Positions 23,001 to 64,000 of a stretch of 64,000 bases of DNA are shown here, piece by piece. The stretch is from Buxus sempervirens (lineage: Eukaryota; Streptophyta; Magnoliopsida; Buxales; Buxaceae). Location: the NCBI GenBank assembly GCA_947561395.2, contig OX387185.1, positions 41,364,602 through 41,428,601 on the forward strand, in the 5' to 3' direction. The position numbers and the translations under genes were made by a program. How positions within the stretch are numbered: position 1 is the stretch's first letter; each line of letters starts with the position of its first letter. Below the pieces are notes generated by a model. That model did no database searches. It saw only the letters and a program-made list of their open reading frames with translations, and was not told the origin of the DNA.

Positions 23001-23867
23001 AGTATTTGAATTTGGATTTTCAAATACCCCAAATCTTCAAACATCATACCTCACACCACCATACGGATAGAGATCAATTGAAGTAAGAGGCCGTTTGGTA
23101 ACATTTTTTTTTCTAAAGAAAACCAAAAACATTTCAGATCATTTTTGTATTTTTTTTGGAAACAAGTGAAGAAAAAGACCAGTTTGGTAACATTTAGATA
23201 AAATCAATTATGATTTTAAAAATCAGTAAAAGTGCGTTTGGTAAAGTCTAATAACCATGATTTAAAAACAGTTTGTGATTATAGTAGTTGGTGATAGCTA
23301 TGGTTGTTATAATAGTAGTGATATTAACATTAGCTGTGGTGATGATGATGATAATGGGTGTAGTGCTGATAGTGATGTTGGTGGAGGTAATGGAGAAGGT
23401 GGTGGTGACTGTAGTGATGGTGGTAGTTGGACATTAATGACTTAAGTAATCAAAACAAGAAATTACGAACATACCATAAAAATTAGAAAACGATTCTCTG
23501 TTTCTAAAAGCTGAAATTTTCAACATTTTTTTTTAATTTTAAAGAAAATTAGTTGAAAATTTTTAAATTGTAAAAAAAAAAAAGGAGAACAATTTTGTAA
23601 ACGTTAACACACAGCCTCTTACTTTTGACCCTTTGGGTTTTAAATACATAAGCTGCATGTGAACAATGTACTTATATTCTAACATTTGTGATTGCTTTGT
23701 ATAAATGTAGTGATGGCAAGAATGGCACATTGATAAATGGAACACTATTGGCCCCATCTTCAAATTCTACAATCTCTGCCTCCCTTTCACCCCATTTCCA
23801 TGGTGGCACTGCATTAACAGCTCCTCTTTTCATGGGAGTACTGCTTTGGAGTGCAGTATTCTTGTAG
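19383..23867 (+). CDS. Glucan endo-1,3-beta-glucosidase (GH17 + X8/CBM43, GPI-anchored)
   Basis: Four exons give 500 residues: 19383-19446, 21547-22800, 22925-22952 and 23711-23867, all with GT-AG junctions and matching phases. Residues 1-21 form a signal peptide (MALLLLLHLWLLAVSAATAVQ). The GH17 barrel runs about 22-345, with the catalytic acid/base Glu118 in AVGSEVL and nucleophile Glu265 in VVTESGWPS. The X8/CBM43 domain (about 362-450) has its cysteines at TYC, WAC, VDC, ESC, GTC and GPC, and includes the tiny 28-nt exon. A Ser/Thr-rich linker and the hydrophobic tail APLFMGVLLWSAVFL predict a GPI anchor. The product resembles the Arabidopsis E13 class (At2g01630/At1g66250). It should hydrolyse beta-1,3-glucan (callose) in the wall or at plasmodesmata. 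Reading through at 22801 would stop after PSE and lose the anchor. Intron 1 (2.1 kb) holds GA/GGGA repeats. It looks functional. Confidence 0.95.
19930..20036 (+). repeat. GGGA/GA microsatellite in intron 1 of the GH17 gene
   Basis: A G-run (12-13 bases) is followed by GGGA repeats, then GAGAGA repeats. Open frames across it on both strands are low-complexity artefacts. A second G-run lies at about 20780-20796. Confidence 0.9.
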
Positions 23868-49800: not shown

Positions 49801-50222
49801 TGATGCAGGGGGATCCGAGACAGATGATGCTGAGCTGTCAGATTGCACATTGATGGTGCTGAAATTCCATGAGTTGGCAAATCATTGCAAAGGTAGGAAG
49901 TGATTGTGATATCTTTCTAATTGGGGCAGTTTTGAGTGCATTTTAGTATTTTGGCCATAACTTTGGCTACGGGTATCGGAATTGAGCATATGACCCCAAT
50001 TCGGAAAGCTAATTCCGGCGCGCATGCCGTGGACACCCACCTAAGTCAGTGTGCATCTTTTCTGACCTCAAATTTCGCTGTTGTCCCTTCCGAATCACTA
50101 TTTTTAGTTATTCTTTGCTATTTCTGGTAATATTTCGTTTGTCAATTAGGAAGTGATTTTAAATCCGATTTCGGCCAGATTTTTCACAGGTTGCTTATTT
50201 TTATTCTGTATTTCATTTAGGC
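49801..50222 (+). repeat. Inverted 5' fragment of the Gypsy LTR
   Basis: Starts TGATGCAGGGGG and follows the LTR for about 420 bp, as far as ATTTCATTTAGGCA. It runs in the opposite direction to the adjacent element, so it makes an inverted repeat with both 50223-50443 and 54674-55318. Confidence 0.8.
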
Positions 50223-50443
50223 ACCAATTAGAAAGATATCACAATCAGTTTCTGCCTTTGTGATGATCTGCCAACTCATGGTATTTCAGCGCCATCAATG
50301 TGCAATCTGACAGCTCAGCATCATCTGTCTCAGATCCCCCTGCATCACTGCCTTCGCGATGATCTGCCAACTCATGGTATTTCAGTGCCATCAATGTGCA
50401 ATCTGACAGCTCAGCATCATTTGTCTCATATCCCCCTGCATCA
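50223..50443 (-). repeat. Truncated Gypsy 3' LTR with 96-bp tandem duplication
   Basis: Units 50252-50347 and 50348-50443 both run from CTGCCTT to CCTGCATCA. The pol reading frame runs through both units before ending at about 50245. The C-terminal coding end therefore lies in the LTR, and the duplication repeats about 32 codons. Confidence 0.8.
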
Positions 50444-53356
50444 GCCGCCCCGGGTTGGAAAGAACTCGTCCTCGAGTTCAGAGTAGTGTCATCCGAATCT
50501 ACAAAACAAGGATTTAGGTGCTTCCCATTAAAGACATCAGAAGTCTTCAAGTGACTGGGCAAGCGCAACCTGTAAGCATTATCATTGATCTTCTGCAGTA
50601 CCTCACAAGGTCCAATCTTCTGGTCCTTAATCTTATTATACTTACGAACAAGAAAATGATCACGAGTTAATACTGCCCAAACAAAATCACCAACATCAAA
50701 AAGTACCTGACAACCCGAGTCTTGTACTTGGTATTGCTCTCCTAAATGGCCAGTTTCACCTGCTCATGGATACCCCGAAGATGCGCTGCCATCTCATCTG
50801 CTTTAGGACTGAAATGTCCTACACGTGGAATAGGGGCTAAGTCCAGCACCCCAGATGGGTTCAAACTATAGACAATCTCAAATGGGCTTAAGCCTATGGT
50901 TATGTTTTTCAATCTGTTATAGGCAAATTCTGCCTAAGGTAATGCCAAATCCCACTGCTTCGGTTTAGTTCCTGCCAAACACCTCAAAAGGTTGCCCAAA
51001 CTCCGATTCACCACCTCGGTCTGGCCATCCGTCTGGGGGTGGTAGGCGCTGCTAAAATTCAGTTGTGTCCCCACTTTCCCCCACAAGCTCTGCCAGAAAT
51101 GACTGATGAATTTGGTATCATGATCTGAAGTGATAGATCGAGGAACACCATGCAAATGCACAATCTCCTTGAAGTATAGATGGGCAATCCAAGCAGCATC
51201 CATAGTCTTCTTGTAGGCTATAAAATGGGCCATCTTGGAAAACCTGTCAACCACCATAAAGATAGAATCCGAGGCTTGTTGGGTACGGGGTAAGCCCAAC
51301 ACAAAATACATGTTGACATCGAACCAAGGAGCTTCAGGAACAGGTAAGGGAGTGTACATGCCCGCATTGGTGAGAACTCCCTTAGACCGTTGGCAAACAT
51401 AACAGCGGTCTACATAATGAGCCACATCACTGGTCAACTTGGGCCAATAAAAGTCAGAAGAGATAAGGACCAATGTCTTATCTCGGCCAAAGTGTCCCTC
51501 ATTATGAAGTTCACTTATAATCTGCTGCCTCAATGAACAATCTGGAACGCACAACTGTAATCCACGAAATATGTCTTATCTCGGCCAAAGTGTCCCTCAT
51601 TACAAAATCATGACGGTGACCATCAGTTACCTCCTGAAATATCCTTCCGAATGAAGGATCAGCTGCATACATATTGGTGAAAGCCTCAAAGCCTGCAACT
51701 CTGTTACGCATGGTGGTGAGAAGTAAAGTACGACGACTCAGGGCATCTGCGACATGGTTTAGGCTCCCTGCTTGGTGTTTCAGCGAAAAGGTGAACTCTT
51801 GCAAGTACGCCACCCACTTGGCATGCCGTCTACTCAGTTTGTGTTGGCCATTAATGTACTTCAGGGCCTCATGATCAGTAAACAGAATGAACTCCCTCTA
51901 TACTAGGTAGTGACGCCAATGCTTCAAGGACTGAACTATGGCATAGAACTCCAGGTCATAGGTGGAATAAGTTTTCTTTGATCCCAATAGCTTCTCACTG
52001 AAAAAAGCAACCGGACACCCTGACTGACTCAGAACACCACCAATGCCAACGCCAGACCCATCACAATTTACCTCGAACACTTTGTCAAAATCAGGGAGTG
52101 CCAAAACTGGTGCTTCGGTCATCTTCTGCTTGACTAGTTGAAAACTGGCCTCGGCCTCATCAGACCACTTGAAATCTCGTCCCTTGAGGCACTCTGTGAT
52201 GGGAGCAATCAGAGTGCTAAAATTTCTGATGAATCGTCAGTAGAAGGATGCCAATCCATGGAAACTACTGACATCATGCAAGGTCTTTGGTTTTGGCCAC
52301 TCCAAGACTGCATCTATTTTTGACTGATCTGCATGAATACCATCAGTAGACACAACAAAGCCAAGAAAAGTTACAGAAGTAGTGAAAAAAGAACACTTCT
52401 TTTGATTGACAAATAGGCACTTTGTCTTCAGCATCTCAAAAACAGCATGGAGGTGATCAAAGTGTGAGGCCAACGTCGGACTATAAATGAAAATATCGTC
52501 GAAGTAAACCACAACGAATTTCCCCATAAAAGGCCGCAAAATTTGATGCATAAATCTCATGAATGTACTGGGCGCATTGGATAGCCCAAAAGGCATGACC
52601 ATCCACTCATACAACCTGTGTTGCGTCTTAAACGCTGTCTTCCACTCATCTCCAGGCCTTATTCTGATCTGGTGGTATCCGCTTTTAAGGTCAATTTTTT
52701 GAGAAGACCTTAGAACCAGACAGCTGATCCAACATATCATCCAGGCGGGGAATTGGAAACCTGTACTTCACAGTAATTTTGTTGATTGCTTGGCTATCAA
52801 CACACATACGCCAAGAACCATCCTTCTTTGGTACGAGTAGTGCAGGGACTGCACATGGGCTCATACTCTCACGAATATAACCCCTTTCCAATAACTCCAC
52901 CACCTGTCGCTGCAACTCTTCAGCCTCCTTGGGACTGAGGTGGTACGCTGGTCGATTAGGCAAACTCGACCCTGGAACAAGGTCAATCTGGTGCTGGATA
53001 TCTCTCATAGGCGGTAGCCCAGGAGGAAGATCCTGTGGCATTAGGTCAGCGAACTCTGCTAGTAGCTGCTGAACTTCTGCTGATAATTCAGAGTCTATGG
53101 CCACTGTGCTGTTCTCGCAAGGCAGTAGGGTATATACCATATCTCCATGCTCAATCTCATCTAAAAACCTAGACATAGAAAGCAGGTTAGTATTATTGGC
53201 TAGTGACGTAGGAGGGGGTCCTTCCCGCCGGGGCGCCAACACAACCTTTTTTCCCTTGATGTGAAGGGAATATGTATTCTTTCGTCCATCATGGACGACA
53301 CTGCGGTCATACTGCCAAGGTCGACCCAACAATACATGACACGCATCTATAGTCAC
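50444..53356 (-). pseudogene. Gypsy pol: reverse transcriptase, RNase H, integrase (broken)
   Basis: On the minus strand: linker with HVLLGRPWQYDR, then RT with [45 protein letters not shown] and the catalytic [11 protein letters not shown] (about 52480-52510). RNase H follows with VNCDGSG and TYDLEFYA (51898-52122) and DALSRR, then integrase. Integrase contains the HHCC zinc region (about 51370-51500), DRFSKMAHF, the central SAYHPQTDGQTEVVNRS with its Glu, and a C-terminal tail LPSHLKTSDVFN. The frame breaks near 52690, 52236, 51898 and 51510, and stops follow IN at about 50934. I see no clear chromodomain. The element cannot make a full polyprotein as it stands. Confidence 0.9.
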
Positions 53357-54673: not shown

Positions 54674-55318
54674 TGACGCCGGACAGAATAGCGATTATTT
54701 TGCAGGCTAGTTCGAATAGATAATTAACAGGGAAGAACACAAGCAGTTTGCTCAAAAAACACAAAGAAATCGTCTATGAGATTCAACTGAATATTATTTA
54801 ATCAAGTAATACTATAATTAGTCCACAAGCCGGACTTTATAGCCAAAAATCGTCTGTATTGGAAAGTTACTCAAAACGACAAAATCCCCTAAAGCATGCC
54901 TAAATGAAATACAGAATAAAATAAGCAACTTGTGAAAAATCTGGCCCAAATCGGGTTTAAAATCACTTCCTAATTGACAAACGAAATTTTACCAGAAATA
55001 TCAAAGAATAACTAAAAATAGTGATTTGGAGGGGACAATAGCGGAATTTGAGGTTGGAAAAGATGCACACCGACTTTGGTGGGTGTCCACGGTGTGCATG
55101 CTGGAATTAGCTTTCCGAATTGGGGTCATATGCGCGATTCCGATACTCGTAGCCAAAGTTATGGCCAAAATACTAAAATGCACTCAAAACGGCCCCAATT
55201 AGAAAGATATCACAATCACTTCCTGCCTTTGCGATGATTTGCCAACTCATGGTATTTCAGTGCCATCAATGTGCAGTTTGACAGCTCAGCATCATCTGTC
55301 TCGGATCCCCCTGCATCA
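54674..55318 (-). repeat. Gypsy 5' LTR (645 bp)
   Basis: On the minus strand it reads TGATGCAGGG to CGGCGTCA. It is the only full-length copy attached to the element. The solo LTR at 62495-63123 is a related, shorter copy. Confidence 0.85.
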
Positions 55319-56870
55319 CATGTTTCGTGATTATTGATTAATTTATTTGAATTAATAGTAGCATTATTTTTTAAATGCTATAATGTCTTTTGCAAAATTT
55401 ATGTTATGCTTGCAGAGGCATGAATGTGTTGCTATTAAATTTTGTACATTAATTATCAAGGAATGTCACTTCTATTTGCCTTTGGGTTTTTATAGACTCA
55501 ACTGCTTAATTTTATGGTCATTTCAGTAGGTTGCTTAACCATTATTATCAAAATCACAAATTAATATTTGAATCCTGTGATCTAGATTTTAGGCTTGAAT
55601 CTCTTATACTAAGAATTTATATAACTGCTTACCTCAAGCTTTCTATTAACTGCTTAGGGGTAATATATTGAAGCATGACAGTGTTCTTAAATATCGTCCC
55701 CCCAGGAACCTACATGCTGCTCTGTGTTTTCCCATAAAGATCCTTATGCGTGTGAATTTTTAGAATAGATTTTTAATAGAGTTTTAGTTATCTGAGGGTT
55801 CCATTTGGGTTCTATTGGATAATTAATTTATGGTTGCTCTTCATTGTACAACATAGTTTTCTGTCACAACTTAAGGTGAGAAGCCTGCTCAACCAGATAG
55901 CCTAAAAAGTGGAACCATAGAAAGTTGGATCTCTATTTTGTTGACTCTAGATAATTTTCTTCTTCATCTCTTCCGTTTCAGTTCAGGTTTTAGCTTTTTT
56001 TTATTGTTTCTGTGTCATTTAATTCTTTGTTTCTGAATTTATAGTTTATTTTGAAACCTTAATTCCGATTTTTTCTTTCCTTAAACCTTGATCTCGCAAA
56101 TTTTAAGATATTTTTCAGCCAGCACACTAACCTTTATTTTCTCAAACAAGTAATGGGTTATGTTTGGCTAGCACTCTCACCTTTATTTTCTCAGCGAATC
56201 CTAATATGTTAACCGAAACCCTAATTTGACTCCTTGGATAAGTAAAACTATAGTCTTCCAAAAAACTGAATTCCTTTAGAAAACCTAGCTCTGAAGTAGT
56301 TCACACCCAACTACAATATTCTGATCCTATTTCATTTCATGATTTTCCTTCATAAGAATTCAGCATCACTATTCTTTGGAATTAAAATACATAGTTTTTC
56401 CATGCTGGGGCAATTTTGCCTATTTGACTAGAAAATGAAATGGAATCCAAGTATTCTGTGGGATATCAAAATGCCCAAGTTTTGTCCATCACAGGTGGCA
56501 TTTTGCCTCTTGTGTTGGACGAAATCTATGTAGTCCGCATGCATGCCATGTGCAAACGACAAAAGAAAAAATTAGAGTTGGAAGGGAAGGGAAGAGAGAG
56601 GAGAAGGGGGTTGGGGGCATACCTGGCCTTCTCTCTTTCTTATGAGTAAATTTAGAATTTTGTTATCTTTTAATTTTTTTGTTCTATAGAATTTTTGAAA
56701 TTTTTTGGTACAATTGCATAGAAAATGTAGCAGCATGAGCGGCGTGCTGACGAAATTTCGATGAAATAGCATGATAGACCCTGGGCAAAATGGTGTCAGA
56801 ACTGGCACAACAAACCTTGAAAATACATAATAATTCAAAATTTTGCACCTTAACATGTTTTGGTAGGGAC
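55319..56870. other. Unassigned spacer; no exon recognised
   Basis: AT-rich sequence with no protein that I recognise. The open frame at 56440-56649 has low-complexity Lys/Arg/Glu sequence. It may be upstream intron of the FTSHI5 gene or intergenic DNA. Confidence 0.35.
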
Positions 56871-58920
56871 TGCAACAACTAAATATCTTATCCCAAATAG
56901 TTGGGGTTGGCAACATGAATCTTGATCAACAATCCTAACCTGTCCAAAAGCTGTATCTTCAACAGGTTGTATAATTATTAACTGAAGCCATATATCCTCT
57001 TGGCTTTTACTCTCAACTTCTAATCTTTTTGTATATAGCACTTTTGTTATACCTTCTTATAGGTGCTTCGCTACATCTCCAACTTTCCTTACTCTTGTCT
57101 CCTATTTTGCTACTGTTTGATAGTCTTGGATATGTTCATTCATTATCTTCTTTTTCCTAGACTTTTCATACATCCATCTTAAAATCTTCATCTCAACAAG
57201 ATTCCTTAAATGGAGATGTTCTTTGTTACCCGGCATTTCTGCTTCATACATTATGTCTGGCTGAATAACTGCCTTACAAACTTTGCCTTTGATCTTGTGT
57301 GTAATATAACATGTCAATCATATGCCACGTTGATCACCTGAAAAGTCGGGATTGGCAGCTTCCAAATTGGTGTTACATCTGTAAAGAAGAGGAAGAAAGT
57401 GTAGCACACTTATTAGTTCATTGTAAAGGTGTTACAAGGTTATGGGGGATGATCTACCAAAAGCTAGGAATATCATGGTTTCAACCTAAAGAGGTAAGAC
57501 ATGTTCTTGAAGCGTGGGGGAGGAGGAAAGGTAAATCTTGTGGAGACTTAATATGGAATTCTATTCCTTCAGCTGTTGCTTGGGTGATTTGGAAAGAGAG
57601 AAATAGAAGGACTTTCAAAAATTTCAAAAGGAAGGGGACAACATTGGAACGAGCTGTCCTGAGATTAATACATAGCTGGGTGTCAAGTCATCCCATGGGA
57701 GCTAACATCCCCATCTAAGAATTTATGGGGTGCAATAGGTTTTTGAGATGGGCAGGGGGTAGTGATCTGGTTGTTTCTGTAGTGTTGGGCCAGTAATGAG
57801 ATCTACTACTAGTACACAGTTTGTCTACTATGTAAACTTTACTAATTCTAATTATTTATAATATTTCCCTTTGATTACTGATCAAAAAAAAAAAAAAAAA
57901 TCATATGCCACATTGATCTAGTGTAAGAACTATTGGTTAATCCCTGTTACTGATATTATTGATGCATTTTGTATAATTTTATCTCTTACATGTTTTGAAG
58001 TCTTCTGATTCCATGGTGCATGTCCATAATTCGAGGTTTCCACTATCACTCACTTTGGTTTGGTCTACAAAAGTGATGCTACGTGAATACAACTTGTCTT
58101 TAATATGACCTGCCAATTCATCCATAGTAAAAAGAAAAAGGATAATTGTTTGGACATCTCATTCAGCAATGTGCAGGCTGGTGGATATATTAGGACAAGG
58201 ACGCCTGGACGTAGTCTTATTTAGGAGACCCTCATCAGATGAGATGTTAGCTGAGTAGCATCTCCATGTTTCTTATTGTTCTGTACATATTATAGTTCCT
58301 ATTTTTCTGTCATTATACTCTTTTCCCAGCCCTTGTAAGTACTCCTCTTGAAATTTTGACACAATCCTTCATTATTCATTGGAAAAAGAAAGATCAATGC
58401 AAAGAAGTAAGGACTCTTTGCTTATCCCTGTCGTAAACCTAAAGTTAACTAAAACATTTTTGTCTTATGCCAATTGGTTACCCTGGTTACCTCTCCTTCA
58501 TATATGTAATAATGATATCAATGCATTTGATGGGACTCCTTTACTAATTGCTACTTAATTGAATTTATAGATATTTTATCATATCTTTCCTTAGATCTAT
58601 AAAAGCCATTTGAAGACCCTTATTTGTGGAAAGTCACACTGATGACTAATAAGTAGAAATATAGCATCAATTATAGATCCTTATTGGCGTAAAGCCACAA
58701 TGACTTTATACACAGGTTATTTTTTTCCCTTTTTGTCATCACTCTTTCCCCATAATTTCTTAGTGTAGCTCATAAGATTAGTCCTACTATAATTTGTAAA
58801 AATTTTTGTTGTCAATTTTGTTCTAATGTATAGGTAATATTGCGCTTCTCCTTTAGGCATTCGGCATTTTCTGATACTTAAAATTCTACCAAAGATTATG
58901 TTCGCCAAGATGCCCCATTC
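56870..58920 (-). mobile_element. RTE-type LINE remnant, interrupted by an L1
   Basis: Minus-strand fragments in order: a TNYSRTNLMSYTKKLWGK region (about 58750-58800; compare NYRGIKLMSHTMKLWERV of plant RTE reverse transcriptases), AIFLL (about 58640), FIDLRKD-like sequence, then KGKVCKAVIQPDIMYEAE and NLVEMKILRWMYEKSRKKKI (57120-57290), typical of the RTE C-terminus. Near 56900-56920 HVANPNYLG resembles the conserved RTE end. Frames are badly broken. Confidence 0.65.
57336..57900 (+). mobile_element. 5'-truncated L1 LINE with zf-RVT domain and 18-bp target duplication
   Basis: Flanked by TCATATGCCAC(G/A)TTGATC (57318-57335 and 57901-57918, one mismatch), and ends in a 17-base poly-A after GATTACTGATC. 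The open frame contains LPNWCYICKEEEESVAHLLV and HCKGVTRLWGMI, the reverse-transcriptase zinc-binding (zf-RVT) domain with its C..C..H..C pattern. WVIWKERNRRTF then follows, and the frame stops at 57716-57718. It inserted into the RTE remnant. Confidence 0.9.
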
Positions 58921-59950
58921 TGTTCATGCATTTCCATCCTTGAATTGATTTACTTTCTAGCCCTAGAGCCTTTCTTAATTAAATCACTCTTCATTTTTTG
59001 TTGTTCTAGTGAAATTAAGAAGATTTGTAGTATGACTTATGATGAGATTAATTAGGCCAAATATGTAAATAACATTGTTTAATTGATTTAGTTGGAAGTT
59101 GTTCAAAGTCTAAATTGACGAAAGGGTTTTAGAACTTTCATTTTCTTATATTGCCATAATTTTTGTGCATTTTAGGCCCCAAACCCAGTAGAGATGGGTT
59201 GCTTCAGTTTAGTAAGCTGCATATGATTTATGATGACATTAATTAGGCCCCAAACTCTTTGAGCTTCAGTTTAGGATAAGGCTGACTTGGATGTTATTGT
59301 TGAATTTTTTGTTAGGAAGTTGCTGAAGTCATTGATGTGATTATATGATAGTTTGTATGAATCATTAATGATAATGTTGATGTTAGATGCTTACTTGATT
59401 AAATGTTGGTTACATAAATAACTTTGCATATTTGAGTAAATAACTACAGATAAATTTGTTCTTTGCGAACACAAGACTTTTAATTATATGTATTAAACAT
59501 GAACACGTACCCCTGAATCCTTTGCATATTTGAGTAACCAGGCAGGATGACCTTAGATTAACTGATACATGGCAATATAAGCATAAATTGACTGAAATAG
59601 GAAATATCTTTGTGTTGAGCGCTAGTATTGATATTATGATAATTAATTTTTCTTTGCATAAAAATATGGAAAATCTGACTGCAATTCTGATGCTAAAATA
59701 TTGGCTGTTTTGACCATATAATTATTAATAATGCCTGCACTTTTTGATATTTATAAGTATCTAGACTTGCTCTAGGCCTATAATTTTAATATCAATCACA
59801 AGCGTAATTGTACCTTTCTCCAGCAGCAGAATTTGCTTGGATATCTCTAATTTTAAGGATTTGAAAAAAGTTAAGTTTCTAGTCATTTCCTATTTACTTT
59901 CCTAGTGAAAAAAAGATTTAACTTCATATTTCTTATGCATAGACTTTCAG
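58921..59950. other. Probable intron of FTSHI5; no other feature
   Basis: AT-rich sequence ending in a pyrimidine-rich acceptor, CTTTCAG at 59944-59950. It contains two imperfect copies of a block with GGCCCCAAAC and CTTCAGTTTAG (about 59175-59275), otherwise nothing recognised. Confidence 0.4.
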
Positions 59951-62900
59951 CAACGCTGTACCCAAATGGTTGAGGAAATCTAAAGTTGTCCGAATGATTG
60001 ACAAATGGCTGATAAATCATCTTGGACTGACCTTGACGGGAGAGGATCTGCGGAATGTGGTTGATTTAATGGAACCATATGGTCAAATAAGCAATGGAAT
60101 TGAACTTCTAAACCCTCCACTTGATGTAAGAAAAATATCCTGTCAGTTGGGTTCACAAATGGAAAACTGAATTGCTTCTTTTATCTTTTTGGTTATTTTG
60201 ATCATTAGTTCCATTTAATTTTTCTTGTTTCACTTGAAAGTCCAGTGCTTACCTCTTTATTGCTAAACTGCAGATTTCCTGTACTAATTTAACTTCATTG
60301 AGATCCGATCTTGTTATTCGTTTCACTATATTGTATTCTATTGACATTAATTCTTTCAGCAAATAAATTTATTTATCCATATTTCTTAATTAATTTATTC
60401 AGTCTATCCTCTCTACTCTATGTTTATGGAAGATGCCTGACTCTAGATGAAAGAAATTTTAAGTTTCCTCATAATACTTGAATCTCTTGGGGACTACTTC
60501 TTTGTCAAGTTTCAAAAATTAACTTTATTTCATTCTAAATCAACTTATCAGCAATTTTGTTACCCTGTTTATGCAACATAATCATAGACAGTTAGCCCAC
60601 CTATCTACAAACCCTAATCAGAAGGAAAACTCTCACACTTTTGTTCTCTCCTTTGACAATATTATCTAATTTTTGCAGTTCGATGCAATCTTGATGCAGA
60701 TGGGCCTAACTATTCTAAAAGACTAGCCTATTAGATAGGTTTGCTCACTCCACATATAAACACATAAGGCAACCCCTTCATTAACAGATGTGGGATAGGA
60801 ACAACAGTCTCACTGCATCAATTCCCTCTCTCCCCAAAGAACACACGTCCCGTGTGCACACGAGTCTCACGTGAGATGCACATACGCATGCACCCACCAT
60901 CCATGAAGGTCTGGCTTTGATATCAAATGATGCAGATGGGCCTAACTATTCTAAAAGACTAGCCTAGTAGATAGGTTTGCTCACTCCACATATAAACACA
61001 TAAGGCAACCCCTTCATTAACCGATGTGGGATAGGAACAACAGAGTCTCACTGCATCAATTCCCTCTCTCCCCAAAGAACACACGTCCCGTGTGCACACG
61101 AGTCTCACGTGAGATGCACATACGCATGCACCCACCATCCATGAAGTTCTGGCTTTGATACCAAATGATGCAGATGGGCCTAACTATTCTAAAAGACTAG
61201 CCTATTAGATAGGTTTGCTCACTCCACATATAAACACATAAGGCAACCCCTTCATTAACCGATGTGGGATAGGAACAACAGAGTCTCACTACATCAAATC
61301 TGTTCTTTGAACTGTCTCATGGCCATAGACCTCTGAACTTTGTTAATATATTGGGAGCACTAGCAGCAAATGATTTTGAATTTTGTATTTTGATATCAAA
61401 TTTCCTTTTTCAAATAAATGTATAAGAAAATTAGTGTTGGAGGGATGGCTCTCTCTATCTGATTTGTCTATGAGCTTACCTAGATCCAATTAAATGGAGC
61501 TGCATAACTGGGGTATCTCTACTCTTCATGCCATTTTTATTGTCAATGATAAGTCTTATGGTCAGGTCTCTATTGTTATCGACTTCCTATATCTGTTGTA
61601 TTGCAAAGTTTACCATTCTTTATTTTTTTCTTTGAGCCAAGTTTCCAATGAACTGCAGATGGAATATGAGATGGGAAGGGTGTTTCTTTATATATATTGC
61701 TTCTTCTTCTTCTATTTTAGGCTGGGGGCTCAAGCCCTCTTTTAAGTGAGGCTCCAATAGATCCAAGATTGGAAAACGAGATGAGAAGGAGATTTTTTTT
61801 TTTTTTTAATATATAGATTGGAAATCCTTCAAATTTACCATGTGGAAGGAAAATAGAGATGAGAGCTTGAAGATTTTTATATGGTTTGGCGTTGTGCCTA
61901 TGGCCATGGGGAAAAGAAGATTTCATTGGTGAATATATAGTCATGCAAGAACATTAAAAATTCAATGTTTCATATTATAGAATAGCATCCAATGGATTAA
62001 AATAATGTGTCCCGTATTAGTGGAAGAGTTGTCAGTGTGACCTATATCAAGAGATTCCCTTTCACGTTGACGTTTTGACCACCACCAGGGAACTGAATCT
62101 GTCAAGAAAGACCAGAAGTCCTTTTTCCCACACATATTTTGGAACTCCGTCAAGAACATTTTAGCTTTTAATTTCCACAGTTTTTTAAGCATGCTGCGGT
62201 CTTTTACAGTGTGTTTTTTTTTTTCAGGTGTCAAAAAATATTTATTCCACCATTATTGCTTCTTGTGAGCCTACGGCTCATAATTCCATTTCTTGTTTTG
62301 ATGTTAGAAAGTATGTTTATTTGATAGTTTCATTTTAATATTTGTCAATAATTGGAATTTGGTGACTTGCAAGTGGACGAGGGAGACAAAGTTTCCACAT
62401 GCTGTCTGGGCTGCTGGTCGTGGTCTTATTGCCCTTCTTCTGCCGAACTTCGATGTTGTTGATAACATATGGCTAGAGCTATTTTCTTGGGAGGTGACGC
62501 CGAGCAGAATAGCGATTACTTTGTAGGCTAGTTTGAACAGACGATTTAACAGGGAATAACACAATTTGTTTGCTCTAAAAACGCATAGAGACATTTCTAA
62601 GATTTAATTGAATTCTATAAAATCAAGTTATCTCAAAACAGTCCACAAGTCCGACCATATAGCCAAAAACTCATCCGAAATAAAAAAATAGCAACAAGGC
62701 CTTAAAAGGAAGTACAGAATAAAATAAGCATTCTGCAAAAAATTTGGCCCAAATCGGGTTTAAAATGACCTCCTAATTGACAATCCAAGACTTACCAAAA
62801 ATAGCAAAAATTAACTAAAATTGGTAATTCGAAGGGGTAAACAGCAGAATTTAAGGGCGTAAACGATGCCCACTGAGCAGAGCTGGGTGTCCACGGCGTG

Positions 62901-64000
62901 CGCACCGAAGAGAGCTTTCCGAATTGAGGTCATATGCGCAATTCTGATAACCGTAGCCAAAGTTATGGCCAAAAGACTAAAAACGCATTCGAAACCGCCC
63001 TAATTCGGAAAATATCACCGTCACTTCCTGGCTTTGCGCTGGTCCATCAACTCATGGTATCTCAGCGCTGTCAACATGCAATCAGAGAGCTCAACATCCT
63101 CTGTCTCGGACTCCCCTGAATCAGGAGGTTAGTATTTGAATTGCTTGCACTTGCTCTAATCATTCCTTTCCCGTGATATATTTACTGTATAGTCATCCAT
63201 CATTGAAATGTTGCTGCTTCATTGTACTTATGATTGAACATTTAAATTCCAATATCAGCTTCAGTAGCTTAAATTTATGAAAGCATTTTGAAAGTTGAAA
63301 CATATAAAATCAGTGTACAAAGATTCTGGAAATATTAAAATCATGTGGAAGTACTTGGAAACTTTGGAGTTGTTTTAGATGCAAAAGTAAACTTAAAATT
63401 GATGATGAGCATATTAGACAACCACTAAAACTGGATGATAAATGAAATAATATAATTTGGAGGTACATGGAATGGTAGAATAACTTAGAGGGAAACAGTA
63501 TATAAATGTAAACATATGTCGACATATAAGAAGCATATAAAAACTTAAAAGAGTGTGTTTGGTTACACAGACCCTGTTTGAAAGCAAGAGACAATGAACT
63601 TTCAATTAAAATTTTTATGTTTGGTTCGTAGGAAAATGTATGCCCATCGGAAAGTAATTTTCCAAAGGAGTCCCATTTTTTTCACTAAAGGGCTCTCAAC
63701 ATTTTCTTCTCAAAATGAAGGGAAAACAAAGGCAAGGTAAGGAAAATATTCTTTTACTTTCCTTTTCACTGTTTTCCACCTGACCAAACATAGACAAAAG
63801 GAATGCCTTTTAAACATGGCATGTTGCAAAAAGAGCCTCCAATGACACGATAGAAGGGGAAAAAATATTCATTCACCCCCACCCACCCCACCCCCCAATG
63901 CCACAGTACTTGTTAGTGACATTAATGGCATGACAACAATATATATGTATATATATATAAATATTGAAGTACTGTATTAAATCAAGAAAGGTGCTAGAAA
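59951..64000 (+). CDS. FTSHI5: FTSHI5-like inactive FtsH protease, two internal exons (partial gene)
   Basis: Exon 59951-60125 reads AVPKWLRKSKVVRMIDKWLI, then LGLTLTGEDLRNVVDLMEPY and GQISNGIELLNPPLD. Exon 62374-62493 continues in phase with WTRETKFPHAVWAAGRGLIA and LLLPNFDVVDNIWLELFSWE. Both are free of stops, lie between AG and GT, and join at a codon boundary. From memory this is the M41-peptidase-like C-terminal part of FTSHI5 (EMB3144), a plastid inner-envelope FtsH-like protein that has lost the zinc-binding motif. It belongs to the Ycf2/FtsHi motor associated with protein import. The segment lies where an active FtsH has its HEXXH; here the region reads PHAVWAAGRG, with no HEXXH. Earlier exons are not in view and later ones lie beyond 64000. 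The acceptor AAG before 62374 is slightly unusual. Introns carry a TRIM (60692) and a solo LTR on the donor (62495). Also possible, though less likely: a recent pseudogene. Confidence 0.75.
60692..61296 (-). mobile_element. TRIM with three LTRs (tandem form) in an FTSHI5 intron
   Basis: Three direct LTR copies of about 130 bp (60692-60820, 60928-61058 and 61166-61296) alternate with two interiors of 107 bp. Next to LTR copies 2 and 3 is TCTGGCTTTGATA(T/C)CAAA, the reverse of a tRNA-Met primer-binding site, which fixes the minus orientation. The outer flanks AATCT (60687-60691 and 61297-61301) are a perfect 5-bp duplication. The interior contains a CACGTGAG-like palindromic stretch (about 60840-60875). 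No coding sequence is present. Confidence 0.93.
61302..62373. other. FTSHI5 intron, unassigned
   Basis: Contains two related blocks, with AATGGAGCTGCATAACTGG (about 61492) and doubled GAGATG(A/G)GAAGG words (61668 and 61780), long T-runs, and an open frame on the minus strand at 61962-62234 without a recognised domain. It ends at the acceptor TTGCAAG. Confidence 0.4.
62495..63123 (-). mobile_element. Solo Gypsy LTR inserted on the FTSHI5 splice donor
   Basis: TGACGCCGAG to CCTGAATCA, 629 bp, related to the LTR at 54674-55318. Flanked by the perfect 5-bp duplication GGAGG (62490-62494 and 63124-63128). The left duplication covers the last bases of the exon ending TGGGAG. The final G plus the LTR terminal TG make a new GTGACG donor, and the original donor GTTAGT persists to the right of the LTR at 63128. 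Confidence 0.93.
63129..64000. other. FTSHI5 intron, right part; simple repeats
   Basis: AT-rich sequence without recognisable exons. A C-rich run (about 63877-63897) and a TA-rich microsatellite (63941-63961) lie near the end. The next FTSHI5 exon is not in the window. Confidence 0.4.

Follow-up and report, generated by a model that had tools for sequence, protein, structure and literature searches.

A solo LTR lies across the 3′ border of an FTSHI5 exon in Buxus sempervirens, and its insertion at this site is certain. Since the 5 bp duplicated on insertion covered the exon border, a GT is retained on both sides of the LTR. We consider it very probable that a Gypsy-type element landed by chance at intron position +1 in a decaying duplicate of FTSHI5, a plant chloroplast gene, and later became a solo LTR. 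The window, meaning the whole 64,000-nucleotide stretch of DNA that was analysed (C6:41364602-41428601), was compared with the genome assembly of 676.5 Mb in 247 contigs.

Results

Anatomy of the insertion at the exon border

The following features of the window are used below, with a slash marking exon borders in motifs.

55320..64000, plus strand: in-window part of the duplicated FTSHI5 segment, from homology with C22
59943..60125, plus strand: preceding FTSHI5 exon, about residues 1028-1088, from tblastn
62374..62493, plus strand: in-frame FTSHI5 exon with 40 codons, about residues 1089-1128 of the Arabidopsis protein
62490..62494, plus strand: left target-site duplication (TSD) GGAGG across the exon border, read from the sequence
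62494..62499, plus strand: candidate new donor GTGACG, with G from the TSD and TGACG from the LTR end
62495..63123, minus strand: solo LTR of 629 bp, Gypsy-type family by its relatives, element sense on the minus strand
63123..63124, plus strand: formal acceptor AG in TCAG/GAG, last A of the LTR and first G of the TSD, from sequence only
63124..63128, plus strand: right TSD GGAGG, read from the sequence
63126..63133, plus strand: AG/GTTAGT, the original donor, formally also an acceptor-donor (recursive-type) junction

The exon translation, WTRETKFPHAVWAAGRGLIALLLPNFDVVDNIWLELFSWE, was identified as FTSHI5 by phmmer (PDB 8xku_C residues 1089-1129, E 8.3e-19). A plasmid search with the exon as query gave no match, which is uninformative. 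The exon itself is open, and both of its borders match those on C22. Its 3′ end reads TTGGGAG/G at 62493, and the border is repeated at 63127, 634 bp on. A sequence-only reading of the window had placed the exon end at GAG followed by GTTAGT, and the homologous C22 exon indeed stops at the identical GAG/GTTAGT. The GGAGG duplication that it had proposed over the border was found at base level, in copies at 62490-62494 and 63124-63128. The LTR between them (62495-63123) runs TGACGCC...CTGAATCA; it has TG...CA termini, is flanked by the 5-bp TSD and contains no internal region, as a solo LTR should.

The left donor stands in the context GAG/GTGACGCC and the right donor in the context GAG/GTTAGTAT. 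The left GT is built from the last G of the TSD and the T of the LTR (GAG/GTGACG), exactly as had been read, and the original GAG/GTTAGT is kept 634 bp later, so that the positions 62493 and 63127 given for the two exon ends both hold.

Relatives of the LTR point to the Gypsy type

The genome search listed 43 matches for the LTR including the window, and 19 of the 42 others span the full length (1-629); these counts are lower bounds, from 40 scored among 515 first-look candidates. The repeated copies with identical termini indicate that the ends of the focal LTR are real element ends. The focal LTR is 76% identical to the LTR of an element at 49.8-55.3 kb of the window, which encodes, in minus-strand order, a CCHC zinc knuckle, RVT_1 and integrase. 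This is the Gypsy order. A closer relative is found on C8, where an LTR pair 88-89% alike to the focal LTR has CAAAT on its outer flanks and encloses RVT_1 and an SH3_Tf2-1 domain. The earlier assignment to a Gypsy family is supported through these relatives. They also set the orientation of the focal LTR: its sense strand is the minus strand, opposite to that of the FTSHI5 exon.

Some peculiarities of the related elements were also observed. In the C8 element the pol frame appears to extend about 100 bp into the 3′ LTR (locus L034, 1541-2167, minus strand), with a tail like ELSNCMLKALRYHEL, and the tail of the window element at 50245-50763 resembles it. In the window element (LTRs at 49801-50443 and 54674-55318), a low-coordinate LTR piece of about 420 bp is 93% identical to the LTR at the other end and inverted relative to it, and this inverted piece adjoins a tandem pair of 96-bp repeats of the LTR start.

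The paralogue on C22 as an empty site

Besides the window itself, the exon has one further match in the genome, at C22:30802447-30802566 (98% of residues). C6 and C22 are collinear from window position 55320 to the equivalent of 66908, past the window end, in pieces that are 90-97% identical except for one 97-bp piece at 81%. The alignment is interrupted in C6 at 62495/63124, where C22 is continuous and reads CTTGGGAGGTTAGTATTTG, with a single GGAGG and no LTR. When the LTR and one TSD copy are taken out, the C6 flanks align to C22 gap-free at the junction. The exon acceptor, GCAAG/TGG, is common to both copies. C22 thus shows the pre-insertion state, and the simplest order of events is that the segment was duplicated first and the LTR inserted into C6 later.

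The two segments differ at other places as well. The homology ends at 55318-55320, within 2 bases of the outer end of the window Gypsy LTR; no matching TSD was seen at this position, which looks like a rearranged breakpoint from the alignment. Left of 49795 no homology with C22 resumes in the 94 kb of C6 and 90 kb of C22 compared, with the sole exception of 251 bp at 23086 that are 75% identical to a remote part of C22. About 606 bp at window 60691-61297, with a repeat unit of about 238 bp, are present in C6 only. The next C6 intron carries an insertion of about 1.77 kb with CACTAC...GTAGTG ends and a 3-bp duplication AAA (locus L031, 390-2162), which is absent from C22 and resembles a CACTA-type element. 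On C22, a second, partial FTSHI5 copy lies upstream of the main one (L044 to L043, C22:30762969-30771274); its exon for residues 918-975 contains a stop.

The C6 copy is probably a pseudogene

The state of the two copies was assessed by tblastn with residues 824-1320 of Arabidopsis FTSHI5, a sequence checked against 8xku_C. The main C22 copy has exons for residues 824-1292, between 30791107 and 30808833. In 94 kb of C6 the same query found no more than four exons, spanning about residues 1028-1216; the ordered set of conserved exons for residues 824-1320 was thus not recovered from that stretch. The exon that follows the LTR on C6 starts GIGCTKITKAKSEG and differs from C22 first by the loss of 1 bp and further on by a 1-bp T insertion. 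One of these indels sits in a T run and is possibly an assembly error; the region of the other differs by more than one base. No open frame runs through this exon on C6, the joined frame reading ...SEGLCMEM and then a premature stop.

Amino acid replacements also occur in C6 where C22 agrees with Arabidopsis, for example WLEP to WLEL and QYGWGPDD to QYGRGPDD. The dN/dS ratio between C6 and C22, calculated from 11 nonsynonymous and 5 synonymous changes in 182 comparable codons, is 0.64, which is suggestive of relaxed constraint from few changes and, resting on 16 differences in a pairwise comparison, is by itself no proof of neutrality. Over residues 824-1320 the C22 sequence is better preserved than that on C6, a comparison that does not imply that C22 is complete. 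The C6 copy is a probable pseudogene, to judge from its sequence a truncated and frameshifted duplicate of FTSHI5. The sequence-only reading had offered the locus as a natural test case for LTR ends in introns; as a test in a working gene this found no support, the copy being truncated at both homology ends and frameshifted in the next exon.

Strength of the two donors and predicted splice outcomes

The donors were scored for pairing with U1, a crude measure. The left donor scored -6.7 and the right, original donor -8.7; the right and left donors rank 1 and 2 among the 40 GTs in 62371-63300. A score of -6.7 or better is reached by 3.6% of the 3345 plus-strand GTs in the window. Ten FTSHI5 donors of C22, whose positions were inferred from protein homology and not from transcripts, ranged from -4.1 to -8.7, and eight were weaker than the left donor. 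By consensus, 5 of 9 bases were matched by the left donor, 7 of 9 by the right donor and 5-7 by the ten C22 donors; the left donor lacks the usual G at +5. The left donor is therefore plausible on paper, and usable by its predicted pairing, but not strong.

It had been proposed that the old donor would give an exon extended through the LTR and the new donor the normal exon. For the old donor, reading from the exon into the LTR meets TAG as the 11th codon beyond the border, and the extended exon would be truncated there. For the new donor, the proposal would apply to the exon but not to the product: splicing from the new donor would yield no normal protein, because the copy is truncated and its next exon frameshifted. 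Either donor on C6 would lead to a broken reading frame, since the exon after the LTR has the two 1-bp indels.

How special is the insertion position

With a 5-bp TSD, four insertion positions span the border, and by reasoning the left copy keeps a GT in all four; the focal position is the only one that needs the T of the LTR. The earlier proposal that TG...CA ends regenerate a GT donor is hence true for this insertion, but overstated as a rule, for all four border-spanning positions leave a left GT and just one does so via the LTR.

We surveyed the TSDs at the best 30 of the 43 listed family matches, the focal one included. At 15 of these 30 loci the TSD copies match at 4 or 5 of 5 bases. The other 15 were left out, having flanking 5-mers that match at 3 bases or fewer, a pattern that cut copies and the LTRs of longer elements would show. 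The TSD ends in G at 5 of the 15 loci retained, the focal locus among them, and the focal TSD alone both starts and ends in G; the other four G-ending loci form two pairs with near-identical TSDs and are perhaps non-independent. The idea that the LTR end was ‘chosen’ to rebuild the donor was rejected, a TSD ending in G being common (5/15). No sign of selection on the border arrangement was found. The border insertion is by chance, and no special cause, selection or preference is necessary.

Discussion

Origin of the arrangement and alternatives to it

In the explanation that we favour, a Gypsy-type element integrated in the ordinary way, with a 5-bp duplication, at intron position +1 of a truncated, decaying FTSHI5 duplicate, and later collapsed to a solo LTR, presumably by LTR-LTR recombination. 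The left GT thereby consists of the G of the TSD and the T of the LTR, the right GT being the original. If the locus is transcribed, a mixture of outcomes would be likeliest: splicing to the next acceptor may start from the left or from the right donor, and the LTR may also be removed as a separate GT...AG piece. All of these products would be expected to be non-coding or truncated, given the frameshift in the next exon and the lack of other exons in the 94 kb of C6. With the host copy truncated and frameshifted and a better preserved version on C22, the arrangement appears fortuitous rather than part of a functioning splice system.

The last of these outcomes can be made an explanation of its own, in which the LTR and one TSD copy (62494-63127, 634 nt) would be a new GT...AG intron. 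The TSD GGAGG has a G at either end and AGG within it, which gives the unit formal GT...AG ends and an AG/GT junction; deleting it gives back the pre-insertion sequence seen on C22, including the donor. By the same token, a TG...CA element with a 5-bp TSD starting and ending in G would be born with GT...AG edges. Excision would leave AG/GTTAGT as a recursive-type site, or, from TCAG/GAG, add an extra GAG codon. Recursive splicing proceeds through AG/GT ratchet sites between two formal introns; the junction here is alike, but it arose by duplication of a normal border and is known from sequence alone. The two formal acceptors (63124 and 63127) have pyrimidine fractions of 0.65 and 0.60, within the top four of the 42 AGs in the stretch, and an acceptor at an LTR/TSD edge is demonstrated for Evelknievel in CMT1 (PMC6238269). 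The acceptor sides are nevertheless moderate, being U-poor at 0.30 and 0.20, where two FTSHI5 acceptors have 0.40-0.45. From 60 to 16 bases upstream of the formal acceptors there is no YTNAY branch motif (one of the two FTSHI5 acceptors also has none). One further C22 entry, placed after TTTCAG, was left out of this comparison, as the reading frame shows that exon to start after GCATAG. Moreover, an identical mRNA would result if the left donor were spliced directly to the distal acceptor. We regard such a new intron as unlikely, and it is quite improbable that the 634 nt are removed from C6 transcripts as a newborn intron in the full sense, with a recursive AG/GT junction at its 3′ end and the pre-insertion RNA exactly restored.

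We very much doubt that C6 holds an expressed and functional FTSHI5 whose exon border was rescued by the rebuilt donor. The open exon and the retained border motif would fit this, as would a new donor that beats eight of the ten homology-inferred C22 donors in U1 pairing; against it, that donor matches 5 of 9 consensus bases and so ties with the weakest of the ten, only four exons are present in 94 kb with homology ending on both sides, the next exon is frameshifted, and the copy on C22 is better preserved. The functional-gene reading was rejected after the comparison with C22. A misjoin in the assembly that put the LTR on the border is extremely improbable: nothing positive speaks for such an artefact, and the perfect TSD, ends that match the family copies, and flanks that are gap-free against the empty site all contradict it.

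Relation to known systems

The closest parallel is Evelknievel, a copia-like element in exon 13 of Arabidopsis CMT1 with the 5-bp duplication GGCTG. It is described as spliced out with an acceptor formed by an A near the LTR end and the first base (G) of the downstream duplication; splicing was shown by RT-PCR and cloned products, and in the rescue variant the donor is a GC that lies inside the duplication (PMC6238269). On that account, LTR/TSD edges as splice sites are already established elsewhere. Both cases involve an LTR element in coding sequence and a 5-bp duplication that starts and ends in G. Evelknievel is a full element inside an exon, whereas the present insertion is a solo LTR at the edge of one. 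A donor that combines the last G of the duplication with the T of the LTR is not evident for Evelknievel in the available part of PMC6238269.

Two further systems share the logic of a duplicated border. Introners are mobile DNA whose TSD provides one or both splice sites (PMC9860276); they are families, mostly interpreted as DNA-transposon-like, that make introns in many genes, unlike this one insertion beside an existing intron. In the AGGT model, a segment holding AGG(T) is duplicated, and its first copy then furnishes the GT and its second copy the AG (PMC4974935). That model concerns tandem duplication in an exon, in contrast to a 5-bp TSD around an LTR on an existing donor. The formal GT...AG arrangement found here arises because the border was duplicated, as in both of these systems.

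Significance

No new mechanism is shown, and the affected C6 copy is probably dead. C6 and C22 form a clean natural pair of filled and empty sites, mostly 90-97% identical, and the question of splicing can consequently be answered by ordinary RNA-seq. The locus is a worked example of how an exon border can survive an LTR insertion across it: the TSD copies the border, and the missing T or A of a splice signal can come from the TG...CA ends.
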